Assembly (NCBI GenBank): GCA_029785685.1
Contig: JAFLZE010000056.1
Location: 1 to 6,378 of the forward strand
Source of the DNA: Nitrososphaerota archaeon
GTDB taxonomy: Archaea > Thermoproteota > Nitrososphaeria > Nitrososphaerales > UBA183
Direction of reading: 5' to 3'
Length of the DNA: 6,378 bases
Numbering within the stretch: the first letter of the stretch is position 1; each line of letters opens with the position of its first letter. The notes beneath the pieces are model-generated. The model was not told the origin of the DNA. It did no database searches and saw only the letters and a list, made by a program, of their open reading frames with translations. Below are positions 42 to 6,227 of this stretch, in pieces. Both the position numbers and the translations under genes were made by a program.

Positions 42-92
42 GTTGGGGGGGTTTGGTTTGCTGTATTCGCAGCACGCTCAAAGTGGCCCGGA

Positions 93-105
93 GTATTTAA
101 CGCGC
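93..105 (-). promoter_or_regulatory. TATA-like element GTATTTAACGCGC, first copy
   Basis: This 13-mer occurs exactly twice, here and at 3696-3708, each time at the left edge of a repeat array. An ACGCTCAA block lies to its left in both cases (74-81 here). Read on the minus strand it is GCGCGTTAAATAC. The CGTTAAA core matches the proposed TATA boxes of the integrase (CGTTAAAC) and of the small gene at 4555 (CGTTAAAT). By that analogy it would fire leftward, with a start near position 68, away from the array and out of the window. A rightward reading (TATTTAAC) is possible and would transcribe the array. Confidence 0.4.
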
Positions 106-124: not shown

Positions 125-476
125 GGGCCTGACAACCCCGCCAAGGATTGACATTTCGCAGCTCAGGCTTGACATGGCAAGGGTCCCAGGCTAGACATCA
201 GCGATGCTAGGCTTGACATCTGGGCTCGAAAGGTGACATCCAGAACCCGAAGGGGGACAATTTTTCAGGCCCAAGGGTGACAAATCTGGCCGGCAAGGGG
301 ACATTCGTATCTACGGAAAGCTGGGAAGGGGGACATTTTTCGAGCGGAGAGTGACATCGGTCTCTACGGGAGGGAGGGCAAAGGGTGCCATTTTCAGGCG
401 AAGGGTGACATCCTGGACCGGAAGGGTGACAAAATCGGACCCGAAGGGTGCCAAATCAGGAGGAAGAGTGACATCT
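125..476. repeat. Iteron-like array of 16 degenerate repeats, phased at about 21 bp
   Basis: Sixteen copies of a short direct repeat lie in one orientation. The core GACA (GCCA in copies 12 and 15) starts at 131, 150, 171, 194, 215, 235, 256, 279, 300, 332, 353, 387, 407, 428, 450 and 470. Most steps are 19-23 bp, two turns of B-DNA; the two long steps are 32 and 34 bp, about three turns, so the sites stay on one helix face. Several left-hand copies read AGGCTTGACAT; later copies read AAGGGTGACAT. A possible seventeenth copy (AGGGCCAAAG) lies at 508-517. The array sits between a leftward TATA-like element and the topoisomerase gene. Iterons of a replication or partition site fit best by analogy; an extended operator is the alternative. 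Bases 477-616 hold nothing clear beyond the proposed topoisomerase promoter. Confidence 0.85.
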
Positions 477-616: not shown

Positions 617-3214
617 TTGGCCTACGTCACCCTCCCCGACTGGCGCCTGTTCAAGTGGGAGTATGTCGGCTCGATCTACGGGGCCTCCAAGCAGGACGTC
701 CCCCGCGTGGTCCTGAAGGAGCTGATGGACAACTTCCTGGACGCGGCAGGCGCCCAGGGCGTAGACCCTCGCATCCAGGTGGAGATTTCCCCGGACAAAG
801 ACTCGAAGACGCTGGAGATTAGGGTCAGGGCAAACACCCACTGGGAGAAGGAGAGGATCGAGCTCGTCTTCTCCTCCCCGTTCGGCTCGTCGGTCAGCAG
901 CAAGAACCTGGTCAAGCTCCCGAACCGGGGGCTCTTCGGCCAGGCGATGAAGGTGCTTCAGGCCCTCCCCTATACTCTGGCGATGGAGCAGGGCTTCCCG
1001 CTCCCCCAGAGCCTCCCGATCCGTGTCGAGACAGCCTACGGCGGCAAGAAGCACGTCTTCTCGATAGGGGCGTCCGTAGACGAAAGGAACAGGAGTGCCA
1101 CGCCTGTCCTGGAATCGTCCATGCCGGGAGACGCTCCCGCCGAAGCGTGGACCGAGGTCGCCGTGGAACTCCCCTTCACGTACGACCTGGGCAGATGGTC
1201 GATAGAGAAGCTCATGAGAGGATTCCTGGTCCTGAACCCGAGCCTCACCCTGCAATGCTTCGTGAAAGGCTCCCCCGGCCAGTCGACCGGGGGACTTCCG
1301 GTCAAGCATAGACGGGTCACCCCCGGCAGGCCTGCCGTCCTCTCCTACAGCCCGGCGCAGTTCAAGGACGCCCTGTTCGCGCAGAGGGTGCCCAACCCCG
1401 ACATGACGGTGAGGGAGTTCATCCAGGGGGGCCGCGGGTGGAGGGGGTTCAGGGGCTTCCAATCGGAGGAGTCGATAGCCGAGGTGCTGAAGGCGGTAGG
1501 GGTGGACGGGGAGACCAGGCTCAGGGACCCTGCCCTCGGCTCCGACTCTGCGACGAGGCTCTTCAGCGCGGCGGTGAAGAGGGCGGAAAGGCTGCGTGGG
1601 AGGGCGCGCCTCGGCTACAAGGACCTGACATGTCTGAGGGGAGAACTCGCCGAGAGGCTCGCCCAGATGGTGGCGCCTGGCGAAGGAGGCGGGGCGAGGT
1701 ACAGCAAGCCGAGGCGAAAGGGGGACGCCAAGCGTCCGTGGATGATGGAAGCAGCGGTGGTCCCCATCGTTCACAGGACGTCCGTGCCTCCGGAGATGGC
1801 TTCCGAAATCATCGTGGGCGTCAACGGGAGCCCGCTGTTGAAGAACCCGTTCGCCAACTACAACCTGAGCAGCGGCAGGAGCAAGTGGGCGAGCACCAAC
1901 GATCTGCTGAAGGACCTGCGGATGCCCGTGATTTGCGCCATCAACATCTCCGGACTGGTCGAGCCGCTCAGCCCAGACAAGGCCGAGATAGACGAGCACG
2001 AGTATCTCTGGGAGTACGAGGTGAAGATCTGTTCCCTCCTCCTGCCCTACAGGAAGAAGCGCAAGGGAGGGCCGAAGGCGCACAGCGAGATGATTGACTG
2101 GCTCCAGAAGGAGCTCGAAAGGAGGAAGGCCGGTTTCAAGGACGGGAAGCCCCTGGACTGGGTGCCGCAGCAGTCCCTCTGGTACAAGGCTCGGAACGAC
2201 TACCTCGTCAGACGTCCGGGCGAGTCCGAGCCTGACGTGTCCAGGAAGTACTTCATCGAGAAGGTCCGGCAGATATGTGCGGTGATGGGGGTCAGCCGTG
2301 AGAAGCTGGGGATCTTCGCGGCGGAGCGGGCCATCCTTTACTTCAGGGGGAGCAGGACAGGGGTGTCCCTGGAATCGATAGCGGAGGTGTTCAAGTACGG
2401 ATCGGACGTCATCGCTATCGAGAAGGAGGGAATCTGCGTCATCTTGGAGCCCCTCGCCGCCGAATACGGTATAGCTCTGCTGAATTCAAGAGGGCAGCTG
2501 GTCGACTATGCCGAACAGGTCATAGTAGAGGCGCGGAAGTCAGGCGCGAGGGTCTTTCTCCTCACAGACATGGACGACGCCGGCTTCGTGATAGCCAACA
2601 ACCTCGGGGGGATAGCCAGGCTCGGCGTGGACTCCCGCATGATCCAGGAACTCGCTCGGGAAATGGGACATGCGACCACGGACGAAGTCAGGGAGTTTAG
2701 GAAGGGAATCGAAGAGAAGGCGAACTTCTACTTCACCAATCTGGAGGAAGACCAATATCTGGAGCTGGGGTGGACTGCCAAGGAACCCCCAAGCAGAAAG
2801 GACCAGATGACGAGGATTGAGATAGACGCCGTCCTCGCCTTCGTGGGACGGGAGCAGTTCTGGGCATACCTCCTGACGAGGATGATGGAGTTGGCCCCGG
2901 AACGCGACCTGACGAGGTCTCTAAGGGACCCCGCCGAGCTGGCGGAGCTGGCCCTTCCGTCTGAAGTGAAGGAATACGTCGACCATGTGAGGGAGACCTT
3001 CCGGGCGCCCATCCAGCGCAGGATTGAGAAGCGATTCGAGGGATACAGGAAGTGGCATGGGGGCTTTCAGGATTTGGAGAAGCTAGAAGGCGGAATAGCC
3101 GAGGCGGCTAGGACGGAGGCTGAAACCGATACCAAGGCGCTCCTCCCGCAGATGGAATCAGAAGTGCGGAAGGTCATCGAGAGACTAGGAAACTCCATGC
3201 CGGAATCGGGCTAA
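617..3214 (+). CDS. Topoisomerase VIII-like single-chain type IIB DNA topoisomerase
   Basis: The 865-residue protein fuses both halves of a topoisomerase VI-like enzyme. Residues about 1-215 resemble the GHKL ATPase of the B subunit, with N box E35-L-M-D-N39 and a G2-like NRGLFGQA segment (103-110). Residues about 380-475 resemble the transducer (VGVNGSPLL at 400-408, then LSPDK with K455 as candidate switch lysine). The CAP-like region follows; Y523 in SLWYKAR aligns by eye with the nucleophile of topo VI A/Spo11. The Toprim domain shows IEKEG (601-605) and LTDMDDAG (649-656), giving E602, D651 and D653 for metal binding. Fusion in one chain defines topoisomerase VIII, a family described from free and integrated plasmids. 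Expected chemistry is ATP-dependent double-strand passage. The G1 box DxGxG is not found; the equivalent stretch reads RANTHW (71-76). TTG is used as start because the frame opens at 581 with no ATG or GTG before it. The gene stands alone; the next gene to the right is convergent. Confidence 0.8.
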   Translation: MAYVTLPDWRLFKWEYVGSIYGASKQDVPRVVLKELMDNFLDAAGAQGVDPRIQVEISPDKDSKTLEIRVRANTHWEKERIELVFSSPFGSSVSSKNLVKLPNRGLFGQAMKVLQALPYTLAMEQGFPLPQSLPIRVETAYGGKKHVFSIGASVDERNRSATPVLESSMPGDAPAEAWTEVAVELPFTYDLGRWSIEKLMRGFLVLNPSLTLQCFVKGSPGQSTGGLPVKHRRVTPGRPAVLSYSPAQFKDALFAQRVPNPDMTVREFIQGGRGWRGFRGFQSEESIAEVLKAVGVDGETRLRDPALGSDSATRLFSAAVKRAERLRGRARLGYKDLTCLRGELAERLAQMVAPGEGGGARYSKPRRKGDAKRPWMMEAAVVPIVHRTSVPPEMASEIIVGVNGSPLLKNPFANYNLSSGRSKWASTNDLLKDLRMPVICAINISGLVEPLSPDKAEIDEHEYLWEYEVKICSLLLPYRKKRKGGPKAHSEMIDWLQKELERRKAGFKDGKPLDWVPQQSLWYKARNDYLVRRPGESEPDVSRKYFIEKVRQICAVMGVSREKLGIFAAERAILYFRGSRTGVSLESIAEVFKYGSDVIAIEKEGICVILEPLAAEYGIALLNSRGQLVDYAEQVIVEARKSGARVFLLTDMDDAGFVIANNLGGIARLGVDSRMIQELAREMGHATTDEVREFRKGIEEKANFYFTNLEEDQYLELGWTAKEPPSRKDQMTRIEIDAVLAFVGREQFWAYLLTRMMELAPERDLTRSLRDPAELAELALPSEVKEYVDHVRETFRAPIQRRIEKRFEGYRKWHGGFQDLEKLEGGIAEAARTEAETDTKALLPQMESEVRKVIERLGNSMPESG

Positions 3215-3310
3215 TTTCCTTCGGTCTCCGGGCTAGCCTGTTAACTGCAAGAAGATTCACACTTATGGCCAGGCATGAGTGGTCATCGGTCGCACGCGCC
3301 GTCGTCTACT

Positions 3311-3334
3311 GCCTTTCATAATCCCATGAAAGGC
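3311..3334. repeat. Perfect 9-bp inverted repeat, 6-nt spacer
   Basis: GCCTTTCAT at 3311-3319 is mirrored by ATGAAAGGC at 3326-3334 around AATCCC. In RNA the stem extends by two more pairs (3310-3335 wobble, 3309-3336). It starts 97 bp after the topoisomerase stop and has no following T run, so it is not a typical archaeal terminator. It could be an operator, a structured 3' end or a recombination site. Confidence 0.5.
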
Positions 3335-3504
3335 GGCGAGTCCAGACGCCCTCCAGGCGGGTTCCAATCAAGAGGCTAGCTGGGGAAAGGTCAGCTATTC
3401 CTGAGCGGTGGGGTTTGTCGCTTGGGGGGCTGTTTGGATCAGGGGAAGACCCCAGGCGAAAAAATCCTTCAAAAAATATATTGGGAGATCGGCGGGAAAT
3501 ATCC

Positions 3505-3543
3505 GCAACGAACTCCCTGGCAACCCTGCCAGCTGGGGGTTGC
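3505..3543. other. Nested hairpin containing array-type repeat units
   Basis: GCAAC (3505-3509) pairs with GTTGC (3539-3543), CTCC (3513-3516) with GGGG (3535-3538), and CTGGCA (3517-3522) with TGCCAG (3527-3532) around loop ACCC. Unpaired GAA (3510-3512) and CT (3533-3534) sit on opposite strands. The arms hold GGCAACCCT in reverse and GGGGGTTGC in forward, both close to the unit of the array at 3714-3859. Paired inverted iterons would produce such a fold, so it may be two outlying binding sites rather than an RNA element. A TATA-like AAAAAATATATT lies at 3472-3483, about 28 bp upstream on the plus strand. Confidence 0.45.
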
Positions 3544-3672
3544 AAAAAATAGTCAATGGAAGATATCTAAACTGGCGTTATGGCATCCTAGGAGATTCGC
3601 TTGTGGTCGTCCCTAGGCGCCATCGTACCTTTCGTTGCCGTCGTCCTTCAGTCCAGAGAGAGAAACTGAGTT
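3544..3672 (-). ncRNA. Possible small RNA, leftward
   Basis: This is a speculative call from signals alone. On the minus strand a TATA-like GCGCGTTAAATAC (3708-3696) would place a start near 3672. The transcript would carry a strong hairpin: ATGGC (3580-3584) with GCCAT (3619-3623), and CCTAGG (3587-3592) with its own copy (3612-3617), around a 19-nt loop. It would end in six U at 3549-3544, with further T6 runs beyond (3477-3472 and 3466-3461). No C/D box, H/ACA or tRNA pattern is recognised, and no reading frame in it looks coding. The palindromic arms would fold equally well from the plus strand. Confidence 0.22.
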
Positions 3673-3695
3673 AGGCGCTTCATACTACGCTCAAG

Positions 3696-3708
3696 GTATT
3701 TAACGCGC
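3696..3708 (-). promoter_or_regulatory. TATA-like element GTATTTAACGCGC, second copy
   Basis: This is identical to the 13-mer at 93-105 and also has ACGCTCAA on its left, at 3687-3694, only 1 bp away here against 11 bp at the first copy. The second repeat array begins 5 bp to its right. Read leftward it would serve the possible small RNA. No plus-strand gene lies downstream, because hicBA is on the opposite strand, which argues against a rightward protein-gene promoter. Confidence 0.4.
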
Positions 3709-3713
3709 CGTCG

Positions 3714-3859
3714 AAGGGTTGCCAATCTACGACAGGGTTGCCACCTGAAACGGGCGTTTTCTGCTTGATTTTGGCAACCCTAGGGACGGAAATGGCAACC
3801 CTGCGGTTCAAGGTTGCCAACTAACACCTAAGGTTGCCAAATTCGGCTCTGGCGTGCCA
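3714..3859. repeat. Second iteron-like array, AAGGGTTGCCAA type, mixed orientation
   Basis: The core GCCA occurs forward at 3721 and 3740, then reversed (TGGC) at 3772 and 3793, then forward again at 3816, 3836 and, more degenerate, 3856. Steps within each group are 19, 21, 20 and 20 bp, again two helical turns. The unit AAGGGTTGCCAA differs from that of the left array (AAGGGTGACAT, AAGGGTGCCAAAT) by one inserted T and one core base, so the arrays are probably related. The forward-reverse-forward order gives the site a partly symmetric layout. Reversed and forward units also lie in the hairpin at 3505-3543. Function is inferred as binding sites for one element-encoded protein. Confidence 0.75.
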
Positions 3860-3885: not shown

Positions 3886-4101
3886 TCACTCGAATTCCGA
3901 GCGGTCCTTCTCCGTCTGCTTGATGATGTACTGAATTACGAAGACGGTAACTTCGCTGTGATGTGGCACCCATGTAGTCAGGACGCGGCCTCCAATCTTT
4001 TTCTTGAATGTGATGTGCTTACCAGACCTTACCTCTTCAAAGCCGTTTGACTTGAGAACGTCGATGACCTTACGACGACGCAGGGGACGAAGTCTTGCCA
4101 T
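3886..4101 (-). CDS. hicA: HicA family mRNA interferase toxin
   Basis: The protein has 71 residues, a normal HicA length. It matches the dsRBD-like HicA fold: KVIDVLKSNGFEEVR (11-25), then SGKHITFKK with the likely catalytic histidine H29, a short glycine turn, TTWVPHHSEVT (42-52) and a final helix VIQYIIKQTE (55-64). HicA toxins cleave mRNA in translation and are held inactive by HicB. The ATG lies inside the end of hicB, with a 32-bp overlap, so toxin translation is probably coupled to antitoxin translation. There is no promoter of its own. The locus is visibly more AT-rich than the topoisomerase and integrase, which suggests separate acquisition. The catalytic histidine is intact, so the toxin looks functional. 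Confidence 0.85.
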   Translation of the reverse strand: MARLRPLRRRKVIDVLKSNGFEEVRSGKHITFKKKIGGRVLTTWVPHHSEVTVFVIQYIIKQTEKDRSEFE

Positions 4102-4339
4102 GTAGGATGCTTTCCGGTATCTTCACGGGTATGTTGGACAGCGACAAGGACATCAGCTCGTCCAGCGAAGGCTTCCGCGTATCGGGGTCTCGGAGGTACT
4201 CGTTAATCAGATCAACCAGGTTCTCTTTGACTTCCTTCTCGGTCAGGCCCTGTGTGGCCACGTCGAGGATGGGAGAAGAGGCTACGAACCACTTTCCTTC
4301 TCTGGTGATGAGAATCGGGACAGGGACCTGAAGCGTCAT
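4070..4339 (-). CDS. hicB: HicB family antitoxin
   Basis: The 89-residue protein shows the HicB partial RNase H-like core: strands VPVPILITREGKWFVASSP (5-23), the conserved turn ILDVATQG (24-31) and helix LTEKEVKENLVDLINEYLRD (32-51). HicB binds and neutralises HicA and often represses its own operon. No ribbon-helix-helix or helix-turn-helix domain is evident in the short tail, so direct DNA binding is uncertain. The frame opens further upstream to 4468, but the ATG at 4339 is chosen because the family match starts there and a TATA box sits 26 bp before it, predicting a leaderless message. The gene precedes and overlaps hicA in one operon, on an element where it could act as an addiction module. 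Confidence 0.83.
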   Translation of the reverse strand: MTLQVPVPILITREGKWFVASSPILDVATQGLTEKEVKENLVDLINEYLRDPDTRKPSLDELMSLSLSNIPVKIPESILHGKTSSPASS

Positions 4340-4360
4340 GTGAACGATGAGGGTGGGTCC

Positions 4361-4369
4361 ATGTATAAG
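4361..4369 (-). promoter_or_regulatory. TATA box of hicBA
   Basis: The minus strand reads CTTATACAT, a good archaeal TATA box. Its centre is 26 bp from the ATG at 4339, so transcription should begin at or next to the start codon. This decides the hicB start and implies a leaderless transcript. Confidence 0.55.
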
Positions 4370-4517
4370 GGCTTTGCCGAGAATGCCATGTACGTTCCAG
4401 CCGGCATGATGGTCCCCCTGACGCCTCGCACTCGTGCAGGTTCGAAGACCTCTTTCATGACCTTCCACCGAATTACGCCCTTTCAGCCTTCGTCGGCCTA
4501 GAACGGTTTCTGCCTCT

Positions 4518-4554: not shown

Positions 4555-4752
4555 ATGGAGGCTCCCGAGCAGGTCTACGCTACGGTCAGCGTCGCTGAAT
4601 TGAAGGCCCTGGCGCGGCGACTGCTTCCCGAATCCAGCCCGACGCGCGCGGTCGTCGAACGCCAGCCAGACCTTGTTCCGTTCTCAGACTACTTCGTCCT
4701 AGCCAAACTCGTCTCCCGCCAGCTCACCTGGGAGCTCTCGCGGGCCTCATGA
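4555..4752 (+). CDS. Small hypothetical protein, 65 residues
   Basis: I do not recognise this protein. It supports coding in three ways: G/C at most third codon positions, like the genes around it; an ATG placed correctly behind a TATA-like box; and a plausible soluble composition with a helix VSVAELKALARRLLP (12-26) followed by a more hydrophobic stretch around FSDYFVLAKLVSRQL (43-57). There is no signal peptide, membrane segment or metal motif. It converges on the integrase and overlaps the integrase 3' end by 29 bp. Small genes beside integrases are often excision or regulatory factors, but nothing in the sequence shows that. A stop (TGA, 4525-4527) closes the frame upstream, fixing the ATG as the first start. 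Confidence 0.45.
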   Translation: MEAPEQVYATVSVAELKALARRLLPESSPTRAVVERQPDLVPFSDYFVLAKLVSRQLTWELSRAS

Positions 4753-6076
4753 TCGCCTCGGTCTTCGAGTCGTCCCACCAGTTCACGAAGTCCCACCCCT
4801 TCTCCATCAGGGCCTTGGCCTCCTCCCTGGAGACCACCTTGGACCCTCCGTTCACCCCCAGCTTCTCCTCCCACTTGGCGTCTATCATTCGCTCTACCTC
4901 CTCCTCGGGAAGCGCTGACAGGTCCCCCATCTTCCCGACCTCCTCCTTTGCGTACCCCGACCTCACGAGCAGCTCCGTTCTGATGATGCTTAGGACTGTG
5001 TCCTTGGTGACGCCCGCGCTCCCTCCGGTCTCAAGGTACCGCTGAGAGGCTTCTGCGTACTGGGCCCGCATCGCCTCGACAGTCTCCTGGGGGAGGCTCT
5101 TGTGGAGGGTATAGACGTGCTCCATGTCCCCGGAGTGCCCCATCCAGAAGACTACGAAGTCGCGCGAGACGACCCCTCTCGCCGTGGCGTTGAGGAGCAT
5201 GTTGTGGTCGAAGTACCTCCTCAGGATATAGGGCCTCCATCTGAACCCCGCCTCCCGGATGGCGGAGCGGATCAGGTCTCTCACGTTCTCCACCGTGATC
5301 AGGTCCCCTCGCTTCTTCGAGACCCTGTCGCCGAACTTCGGCCTCTCCTGAACCTGGGTGGCGTACTTCTGCGTCAGCAACGCCGAGTCGGGAGCGAGCT
5401 TCTCTCCACGCATCATCCTCAGCTCGAGGTACTGCTTGACGAACTCGCACCCCTGGGCGTTGAGGAAGGTCAGGTACTCGTGCCCGAGTTTGGAGATGGG
5501 CGCCCTCACCCGGACGAGCGCCGGGACCGTCGTGAAGGTAGCCTTCCTCGCCTCGGGGTCCCACTCCAGCTCGGGCAGGTCCCTCAACCTCAGCCCGTCG
5601 GTGGTGGAGCCCACGACCTCGGGTCTCACGGAAGTGAACGCGACGAGAGCCACCGCCACCTTCGCCCTGATGTCCTTCGCCGCCAGGATCCTTGACAGCT
5701 CCTCTTTCGCCGGAACCACTTCGTTCGCTATGGTGGGCGTCTCGTTCAGCCTAGGGATCTTCACCCTGATCTCCCCCACAGGCCTCAGGTTGAACCTGAG
5801 CCACGACTTCACCGCTTTGACCGCGCTCTCGATGTAGCCTCCGGCGTTCTCGCGGGAGTCCATGTCGTTGATCATGTCCACAAGGAAGTCGCGTATTCCT
5901 CTCCTGTCAAGCTTCGCCACGTCATGAGGGGTGGTGTGGTAGCGGTCGCAGGCGTAGCCGAGCCTCCTCAGGTAGACCTTGGCCGTCTTTTTCGACCCCT
6001 GAGAGACCTGGCCGAACCAGCGTGCGACGTCCCTGTCTTCGAGCATCGCGGTGTACTTGCTTTGACTTCCCTGCAT
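4724..6076 (-). CDS. Archaeal tyrosine recombinase (integrase)
   Basis: The 450-residue protein is a site-specific recombinase of the phage-integrase superfamily. A core-binding SAM-like N-terminal domain (about 10-110) carries GSKKTAKVYLRRLGYACDRY (27-46). The catalytic domain shows R151 in TSVRPEVVG, likely K196 in ISKLGH, box II YILRR (283-287) with Y283 in place of the usual histidine and R286, H314 in FWMGHSGDMEH, and nucleophile Y322 in VYTLHK. This MGHSGD-E-YT form is typical of archaeal integrases. A C-terminal tail of about 105 residues, ending in SREEAKALMEKGWDFV (416-431), follows. The frame is intact and all catalytic positions are filled. The gene starts 75 bp from the 3' end of tRNA-Ile and reads away from it, so it probably integrates its element there. 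M11 is an alternative start. Confidence 0.9.
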   Translation of the reverse strand: MQGSQSKYTAMLEDRDVARWFGQVSQGSKKTAKVYLRRLGYACDRYHTTPHDVAKLDRRGIRDFLVDMINDMDSRENAGGYIESAVKAVKSWLRFNLRPVGEIRVKIPRLNETPTIANEVVPAKEELSRILAAKDIRAKVAVALVAFTSVRPEVVGSTTDGLRLRDLPELEWDPEARKATFTTVPALVRVRAPISKLGHEYLTFLNAQGCEFVKQYLELRMMRGEKLAPDSALLTQKYATQVQERPKFGDRVSKKRGDLITVENVRDLIRSAIREAGFRWRPYILRRYFDHNMLLNATARGVVSRDFVVFWMGHSGDMEHVYTLHKSLPQETVEAMRAQYAEASQRYLETGGSAGVTKDTVLSIIRTELLVRSGYAKEEVGKMGDLSALPEEEVERMIDAKWEEKLGVNGGSKVVSREEAKALMEKGWDFVNWWDDSKTEAIMRPARAPR

Positions 6077-6150: not shown

Positions 6151-6210
6151 TGGGCCGGAAGGGATTCGAACCCTTGGCCTCCCGATTATCAGTCGGGTGC
6201 TCTAGCCAAG
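6151..6210 (-). other. Candidate attachment site in the tRNA-Ile 3' part
   Basis: Archaeal tyrosine integrases commonly recombine within the anticodon-to-3' end segment of tRNA genes, and the integrase here begins just beyond this end. The stretch is free of the intron. No second copy of the segment is present in the window, so the far boundary, if it exists, lies outside it. The core cannot be delimited from one copy. Confidence 0.35.
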
Positions 6211-6227
6211 CTGCTCCCCCATAGGGA
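6211..6227 (-). other. 17-nt tRNA intron in the D-loop, BHB type
   Basis: The transcript strand carries TCCCTATGGGGGAGCAG between G15 and C16 of tRNA-Ile. The exon GCUC (6233-6230) pairs with intron GAGC (6216-6213) to give a 4-bp helix. It is flanked by 3-nt bulges AGU (6229-6227) and AGC (6212-6210) on opposite strands, and closed inside by CCC with GGG. Cutting each bulge as AG|U and AG|C removes exactly these 17 nt and restores the standard loop AGCTTGGCTA. The outer helix is weak. The CAG repeat at both borders would allow shifted cuts, but this one fits the fold. A tRNA-splicing endonuclease and RtcB-type ligase are needed. Confidence 0.85.

Follow-up and report, generated by a model that had tools for sequence, protein, structure and literature searches.

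The closest described counterparts of the arrays reported here are the clt/TRS sites of Streptomyces plasmids such as pSVH1 and pWTY27, whose readers are TraB or TraA and in which, according to the cited passages, short plasmid-specific repeats lie beside or extend into the translocase gene (PMC3583192, PMC4170104). As described there, TraB of pSVH1 reads 8-bp repeats via helix alpha3 of its C-terminal winged helix-turn-helix (wHTH) domain (PMC3583192) and DNA is transferred in double-stranded form (PMC3583192, PMC4170104); in pWTY27, TGACACC repeats are present in the clt, 16 bp of which belong to traA (PMC3583192). In archaea, relaxases have not been recognised, according to the relevant passages of PMC9905601, which raises the question of how conjugative elements choose their DNA. 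Sulfolobus lacking traG is reported to show a fall in marker transfer, and the terms oriT and relaxase are absent from that paper's main text (PMC9899855). Thaumarchaeal ICEs carry VirB4, VirD4/TraG, a TFIIB homolog, a ParB-like protein and pilins, with no relaxase detected; section 12 of the paper in question names no transfer site for them, and both "origin of transfer" and "oriT" have 0 occurrences in its main text (Krupovic et al. 2019, PMC6563490). A further point of likeness is with integrative mobilizable elements and hitchers with oriT mimicry, which combine an integrase and a cis site with no transfer machinery nearby. The known ones are bacterial and relaxase-based. According to a passage of PMC11389934, archaea might also have conjugation hitchers, the identification of which has lagged. 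Among open-access papers, judged by titles and abstract openings, we found none describing an archaeal array of the kind reported here or its reader.

We analysed a 6,378-bp stretch of archaeal DNA (hereafter the window), which covers one end of an integrated element carrying a topoisomerase VIII-like gene, hicA with a partner ORF, a tyrosine recombinase and a tRNA gene. It is in this respect like the topoisomerase VIII-bearing integrated plasmids, integrated elements in which, in the cited account, a gene like those of type IIB topoisomerases encodes a single chain (Gadelle et al. 2014, as cited in PMC8185306). The features of the window are as follows:

59..74, minus strand: hairpin TGCTG-CGAATA-CAGCA, 18-19 nt from the GTATTTAACGCGC motif
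93..105, minus strand: GTATTTAACGCGC motif, interpreted as a putative leftward promoter element (CGTTAAATAC)
125..474, plus strand: array A, a row of sixteen 11-bp units, most of them A[AG]G[GC][GT]TGACA[TA]; class I (GTGACAT)
617..3214, plus strand: topoisomerase VIII-like protein, 865 aa, with Topo VI B-like N-terminus and TOPRIM-like DMDDAG
3461..3690, no strand: conserved non-coding stretch, 93.9% identical to the ortholog L001, with two predicted hairpins
3696..3708, minus strand: second copy of the GTATTTAACGCGC motif, adjoining array B
3715..3840, mixed strands: array B, six units resembling AAGGTTGCCAA, with class III (TGCCAA) as the closest class
3886..4101, minus strand: HicA-like toxin gene (PF07927, 6.3e-10)
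4070..4468, minus strand: small ORF adjoining hicA, HicB-like by position only
4724..6076, minus strand: tyrosine recombinase (integrase); several homologs are named site-specific integrase or have PF00589
6150..6243, minus strand: tRNA gene, right end of the element, candidate integration target

In a topoisomerase VIII the B and A subunits are fused in one chain. The B-like part of the 865-aa protein matched the Topo VI B model weakly, at E = 4.9e-6, far under the model's cut-off, and Topo VI B in the PDB at E = 0.015; its DMDDAG was recognised by eye, and its AlphaFold model was unusable (pLDDT 34). The hicA-like gene and its small upstream partner ORF (3886-4468), the latter with no Pfam match, likely form a toxin-antitoxin maintenance module. 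The tyrosine recombinase itself had no Pfam match, and the tRNA gene is the probable integration target of the element. This gene was assigned by ARAGORN as tRNA-Ser(GCT), with an Rfam match covering only 6151-6220; by eye it resembles tRNA-Ile(GAT) with a D arm longer by ~17 nt, and these additional nucleotides may be an att scar or an intron of an unusual type. The tRNA was the only match in an Rfam scan of the window, and the block at 1-105 was unmatched.

The initial annotation described array A as 16 degenerate cores, and this was borne out: all are on the plus strand, with core (GACA/GCCA) starts at 131, 150, 171, 194, 215, 235, 256, 279, 300, 332, 353, 387, 407, 428, 450 and 470 and steps of 19, 21, 23, 21, 20, 21, 23, 21, 32, 21, 34, 20, 21, 22 and 20 bp, which sum to 339. 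Matches to AAGGGTGACAT with ≤ 3 mismatches numbered 15 forward and 0 reverse, compared to means of 0.89 and 0.32 (maxima 4 and 3) in 200 dinucleotide shuffles, confirming the excess of cores over shuffled sequence. Of these 15 matches, 14 are true cores and 1 falls between cores; the two remaining cores, at 131 and 194, differ from AAGGGTGACAT by > 3 mismatches. A drift from AGGCTTGACAT on the left to AAGGGTGACAT on the right was also present, and a position weight matrix built from the 16 cores recovered array B as a second array in the window, with units starting at 3715, 3734, 3810 and 3830 on the plus strand and at 3771 and 3792 on the minus strand.

The cores had also been described as held in helical phase. 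This stands for adjacent steps, the spacing of which is near whole turns, but phase across all 339 bp, over and above local spacing, was not significant (residual SD 0.91 vs 1.30 in permuted steps, P = 0.06). Vector strength at 10.5 bp was 0.76 for 57 adjacent steps from the hand-curated cores of ten arrays, and the best-scoring period within 8-14 bp was 11.15 (0.80) for the ten arrays pooled and 12.9 (0.86) for array A by itself. The 12 steps other than two turns likewise gave 0.76 at 10.5 bp (P = 1.5e-4 vs uniform steps). For this spacing test, array A was represented by the 16 cores of the initial annotation, overlapping or between-core matches were removed (179 in the window, the minus match at offset 23 in array B, the minus match at 218 in G024 and "CAGGAGGCAAA" in G036), one 4-mismatch unit each was added in G026a and G036 at the phase-predicted place, and G001 and G038 were excluded as near duplicates.

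The ortholog L001, the closest relative, is a contig of archaeon LSA3.bin14 (G001), in which the topoisomerase is 89% identical to that of the window and both arrays are present; among 46 genomes of the family, the topoisomerase was found in G001 alone. Array A in L001 has lost 45 + 22 bp and has 13 units by matrix score, 11 of them being counted with ≤ 3 mismatches. It had been suggested that selection acts on the cores rather than on the text between them. This was not supported by the comparison of window and L001, where identity was 120/141 in cores vs 131/146 in spacers, values which speak for the distance between these two loci and for aligned positions. That the cores are conserved no more than the spacers, that units have been lost in L001 and that the units of window array A are far more degenerate than those of G003 would fit an array A which is a decaying relic, a degenerate leftover that is now functionless. 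However, L001 retains most steps and most core positions, including the 32- and 34-bp steps, and its array B stretch is 89.3% identical to that of the window with 6/6 units kept, and we regard a functionless relic as quite improbable.

Adjacent to array B, the conserved stretch at 3461-3690 (230 bp, including an AT-rich stretch) lies directly right of 3215-3460, which has 48.4% identity to L001 (gaps included). It holds an inverted pair of array-B-like sites (3517-3527 and 3535-3545) and could be a replication origin or an RNA. An 11-codon ORF, MKRLTQFLSLD (3648-3683, minus strand), is found near the expected start of a transcript from the 3696-3708 motif and by eye is retained in L001.

When the window array was used as a nucleotide query, it led to a second locus type, in genome G003 of the same family, and the block of G003 was then used as a query against 400 genomes of the order, with 9 genomes matched. 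One of these, G108, was a chance match. A second query returned the identical 9 loci, which are found in 8 of the 46 genomes of the family and include L001; counts over 10 loci in this text refer to these 9 and the window. Each locus has a conserved block (a G-run, a hairpin at fixed distance, the motif and further hairpins), followed by the array. Within the block, GCGTTAAAT is invariant across the 10 loci, positions 93-106 are 14/14 identical in L001, and the stem of the hairpin near the motif is perfect in 9/10 loci, with inner pairs that differ. The leftward direction of the GTATTTAACGCGC motif was judged by eye from TATA-like motifs preceding the integrase and Zn-ribbon genes. As the initial annotation had anticipated, the regularly spaced, repeated cores of a mobile-element site are thus kept in related elements: the 10 loci hold 13 arrays, each a short repeated motif in a short non-coding stretch, which in G026b extends into a gene. 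In IMG/VR, no relatives of the topoisomerase or of the ATPase described below were confirmed, and a scan with a 15-base motif gave 40 contig stretches, none with ≥ 4 core-matrix matches within 130 bp. The flanks of the G003 element held no att repeats of ≥ 20 bp apart from array units.

We assigned the 11-bp units to three related classes and read their consensuses ourselves: class I with AAGGGTGACAT (G017, G003, window A and L001 A) and AATGGTGACAT (G020); class II with AAAGTGGACAT (G024) and AAGGTGGACAT (G026b and G003); and class III with AAGGACGCCAA (G036 and G038) and AAGGATGCCAA (G026a), to which AAGGTTGCCAA (window B and L001 B) is closest. Steps are mostly 18-23 bp across the arrays, commonly ~21 bp, with additional steps of ~31-33 and 42-43 bp in class II. 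Units all point one way in the class I arrays and in the class III arrays at loci with an ATPase; both directions occur in array B and in the class II arrays of G024 and G026b, and G003 has its class II units on the minus strand throughout. A mechanical count with uncurated cores, for which we set the region lengths and removed plus-strand matches (class I units) from the G003 class II array, gave exactly 6 units in 9/13 arrays, the others having 4, 5, 11 and 15. Six is the subunit number of HerA/FtsK-type hexamers, and its agreement with the commonest array size may be a coincidence.

The array had initially been tied to topoisomerase VIII. Topoisomerase similarity was found at the window and L001 only; among the other 8 loci, a TraG/HerA-like ATPase that includes a wHTH domain is encoded at 7 and a ParB-like protein at 1. 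The array occurs without the topoisomerase and the link was rejected, the independence of the array family being a difference from the topoisomerase VIII plasmids.

At 7 of the 9 family loci, the array adjoins the 3' end of a convergent gene encoding a TraG/VirD4/HerA-like ATPase of 811-842 aa, with a gap of 7-20 bp at 6 loci and an overlap of 82 bp at G026b. Conversely, all 7 full-length ATPases of ≥ 55% identity in the 400 genomes have an array at their 3' end (2 candidates scored per genome, partial genes excluded). A consensus-free test also found chains of 5-7 spaced repeats at 6/7 ATPase gene ends, compared to a maximum of 3-4 in shuffled sequence; at G026b, where steps are irregular, the chain of 2 was not above shuffled. 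Among 7 more distant or partial ATPase genes, the 3' flank past the stop codon gave chains of 2-3, 0/7 being above the shuffled level, and the array is therefore present with one ATPase branch only.

These ATPases matched TraG-D_C, T4SS-DNA_transf, HerA and a C-terminal wHTH in Pfam, all just under cut-offs, and many of their relatives have the same families in precomputed annotation. PDB profile matches were MntR (1.4e-4), HerA (0.0025) and Sso10a (0.009). Of 30 relatives, 5 are named by organism, all archaeal and 4/5 from Nitrososphaerota/Thaumarchaeota. On the opposite side of the block we found, as contigs allow, a TFB-like gene (PF00382, 1.3e-9 in G017), a 170-aa protein, an ArdC-like protein and a Zn-ribbon protein. 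The G020 element additionally has T2SSE (9e-22), T2SSF (5e-15), weakly VirB4-like (AAA_10, 2e-5) and weakly pilin-like genes. In gene content these elements are like the thaumarchaeal ICEs.

The gene on the far side of the block raises the possibility that the arrays are operators, at which the ATPase wHTH or another element protein regulates the leftward promoter (93-105) of a structured RNA or a TFB operon, with no role in transfer. Arrays A and B each start ~18-50 bp from a GTATTTAACGCGC motif, hairpins stand at a fixed distance from this motif, and the TFB-like gene is left of the block in 6/6 ATPase loci with a contig long enough, and these points speak for such an operator. Over the 13 arrays, however, the distance from motif to array varies from 17 to 282 bp, compared to the 7-20 bp separating array and ATPase gene in 6/7 loci; up to 16 units is many for an operator; and the stretches examined at the window, L001 and G003 loci showed no similarity to TFB. 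We consider an operator unlikely.

The initial annotation compared array A to plasmid iterons and partition sites, which would here be bound by an unrecognised Rep, Zn-ribbon or ParB-like protein. This is possible, and direct repeats with a 20-22 bp step, a Zn-ribbon gene in 6/6 loci with sufficient flank on that side and a ParB-like gene beside the G003 array are in keeping with it. It is not the best reading: Pfam scans of selected neighbouring ORFs recognised no Rep, a ParB-like gene is beside the array in only 1/10 loci, and in G020 array and ParB-like gene are ~23 kb apart, with no further cluster of units seen in the 38.5 kb analysed there. The ParB-like proteins of G003 and G020 are 42% identical and were assigned by eye, neither having a Pfam ParB match. 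Replication or partition is in our view a fairly unlikely role, and a further point against it is that unit sequence covaries with the wHTH of the ATPase.

This covariation can be seen in single comparisons, with the ATPase body taken as residues 1-690. The body of the G017 ATPase is 76% identical to that of G036 and 63% to that of G020, but its wHTH is 49% identical to that of G036 and 61% to that of G020, and the G017 unit belongs to the G020 class. Similarly, G026a and G036 are 96% identical in the body and 64% in the wHTH, and their units differ. Partial Mantel tests of unit against wHTH given the body were significant (7 loci: r = 0.64, P = 0.0012; 6 loci: r = 0.69, P = 0.035), whereas unit against body given the wHTH was not (P = 0.80); it should be noted that these used exact permutations in a type of test which may be too liberal, and that the sample was 7 ATPase loci, including the near duplicates G036 and G038, with consensuses read by us. 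In these sequence comparisons, unit sequence follows the winged helix and not the ATPase body.

At 7/10 loci the arrays lie against the ATPase gene much as clt/TRS sites do with their translocase gene, and at the window, L001 and G003 no ATPase similarity was found within the stretches examined; the covariation of unit and wHTH suggests that the arrays may also be read by the winged helix of the ATPase. They differ from clt/TRS in their archaeal host, in units which are mostly two turns apart, in the secretion- and pilin-like genes of the G020 element and in the ATPase itself, which is TraG/VirD4/HerA-like and matches TraG-D_C/T4SS-DNA_transf rather than FtsK models. A clt/TRS locus is required in cis for conjugal transfer, for which an FtsK-like TraB suffices by itself; the G020 element has T4SS-like genes. 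Another difference is the presence of arrays of two classes at loci without the ATPase, which the cited passages do not describe for clt/TRS (PMC3583192, PMC4170104). By analogy, the archaeal array may work like clt/TRS, but is set apart by an ATPase body that is not TraB-like.

We propose that the array is the cis-acting docking site of a relaxase-free conjugative DNA translocase and that the window element is mobilised by helpers, a reading which we consider evenly balanced between right and wrong. In the larger, full elements of these archaea, which are probably conjugative, each array unit would be read by the winged helix at the C-terminus of the TraG/VirD4/HerA-like ATPase encoded next to it, and units two helical turns apart would collect subunits on one face of the DNA. 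A hexameric motor could then load at the array, and this loading would mark the element for transfer without a relaxase, like TraB at clt in Streptomyces. The window element seemingly has the docking site without the motor. Its arrays A and B are class I and class III-like, respectively, and motors of helper elements may mobilise it. Binding, hexamer loading, relaxase-free choice of DNA for transfer and helper use are what we infer from these comparisons. Against a docking site are the cores which are no better conserved than spacers between the window and L001, the distant ATPases without an array, the irregular array of G026b and the non-significant long-range phase; in addition, passages of PMC9905601 favour a single-stranded mode of transfer for archaea. 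If the proposed site has a readable code, then with its candidate reader and a possible hitchhiker it opens both DNA choice and hitchhiking to simple binding assays, and it also gives a search rule for such elements.

The evidence on helpers comes from the loci at which ATPase similarity was not found, namely the window, L001 and G003 (none within 6.4, 4.9 and ~32.5 kb, respectively, stretches which may not span the whole elements). Arrays of two classes were present in 3/3 of these loci and in 0/7 loci with the ATPase: class I with class III-like at the window and L001, and class I with class II at G003. As the window and L001 are orthologs, these represent two independent cases. G001 has an ATPase fragment of 167 residues (84% identical) at a contig end and G003 has a truncated ATPase elsewhere in the genome (residues 1-514, 68%), so these hosts carry, or once carried, elements of the helper type. 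In its 6.4 kb the window has an integrase and arrays and no ATPase similarity, as a hitcher would, the left end of the element being beyond the window. It is possible that the window, L001 and G003 elements are hitchhikers. A more specific version, which is tentative and in our judgement rather doubtful, is that archaeal conjugation has a relaxase-free substrate code, in which the wHTH of a hexameric TraG/HerA-like motor reads 11-bp units spaced by two turns, about six of them so that each subunit has its own, and that the window element is a two-code archaeal hitcher riding two classes of helper.

Two further observations concern the block and its surroundings. The block at 1-105, found also in L001, L047, L058-L061 and L076-L078, has a leftward-promoter-like motif and then 2-3 hairpins with modest covariation; Rfam gave no match at the block in three further loci, and from its sequence the block is possibly a new small RNA of these elements. 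A palindrome, TTGTC[AG]CGACAA, was not found in L058, L001 or L047, and the window begins too late to show it. It is present on either strand ~140-170 bp left of the motif in 5/7 ATPase loci (L059:10016, L060:9783, L061:9450, L076:5212 and L077:964), and its core is found in a sixth (L078:90).
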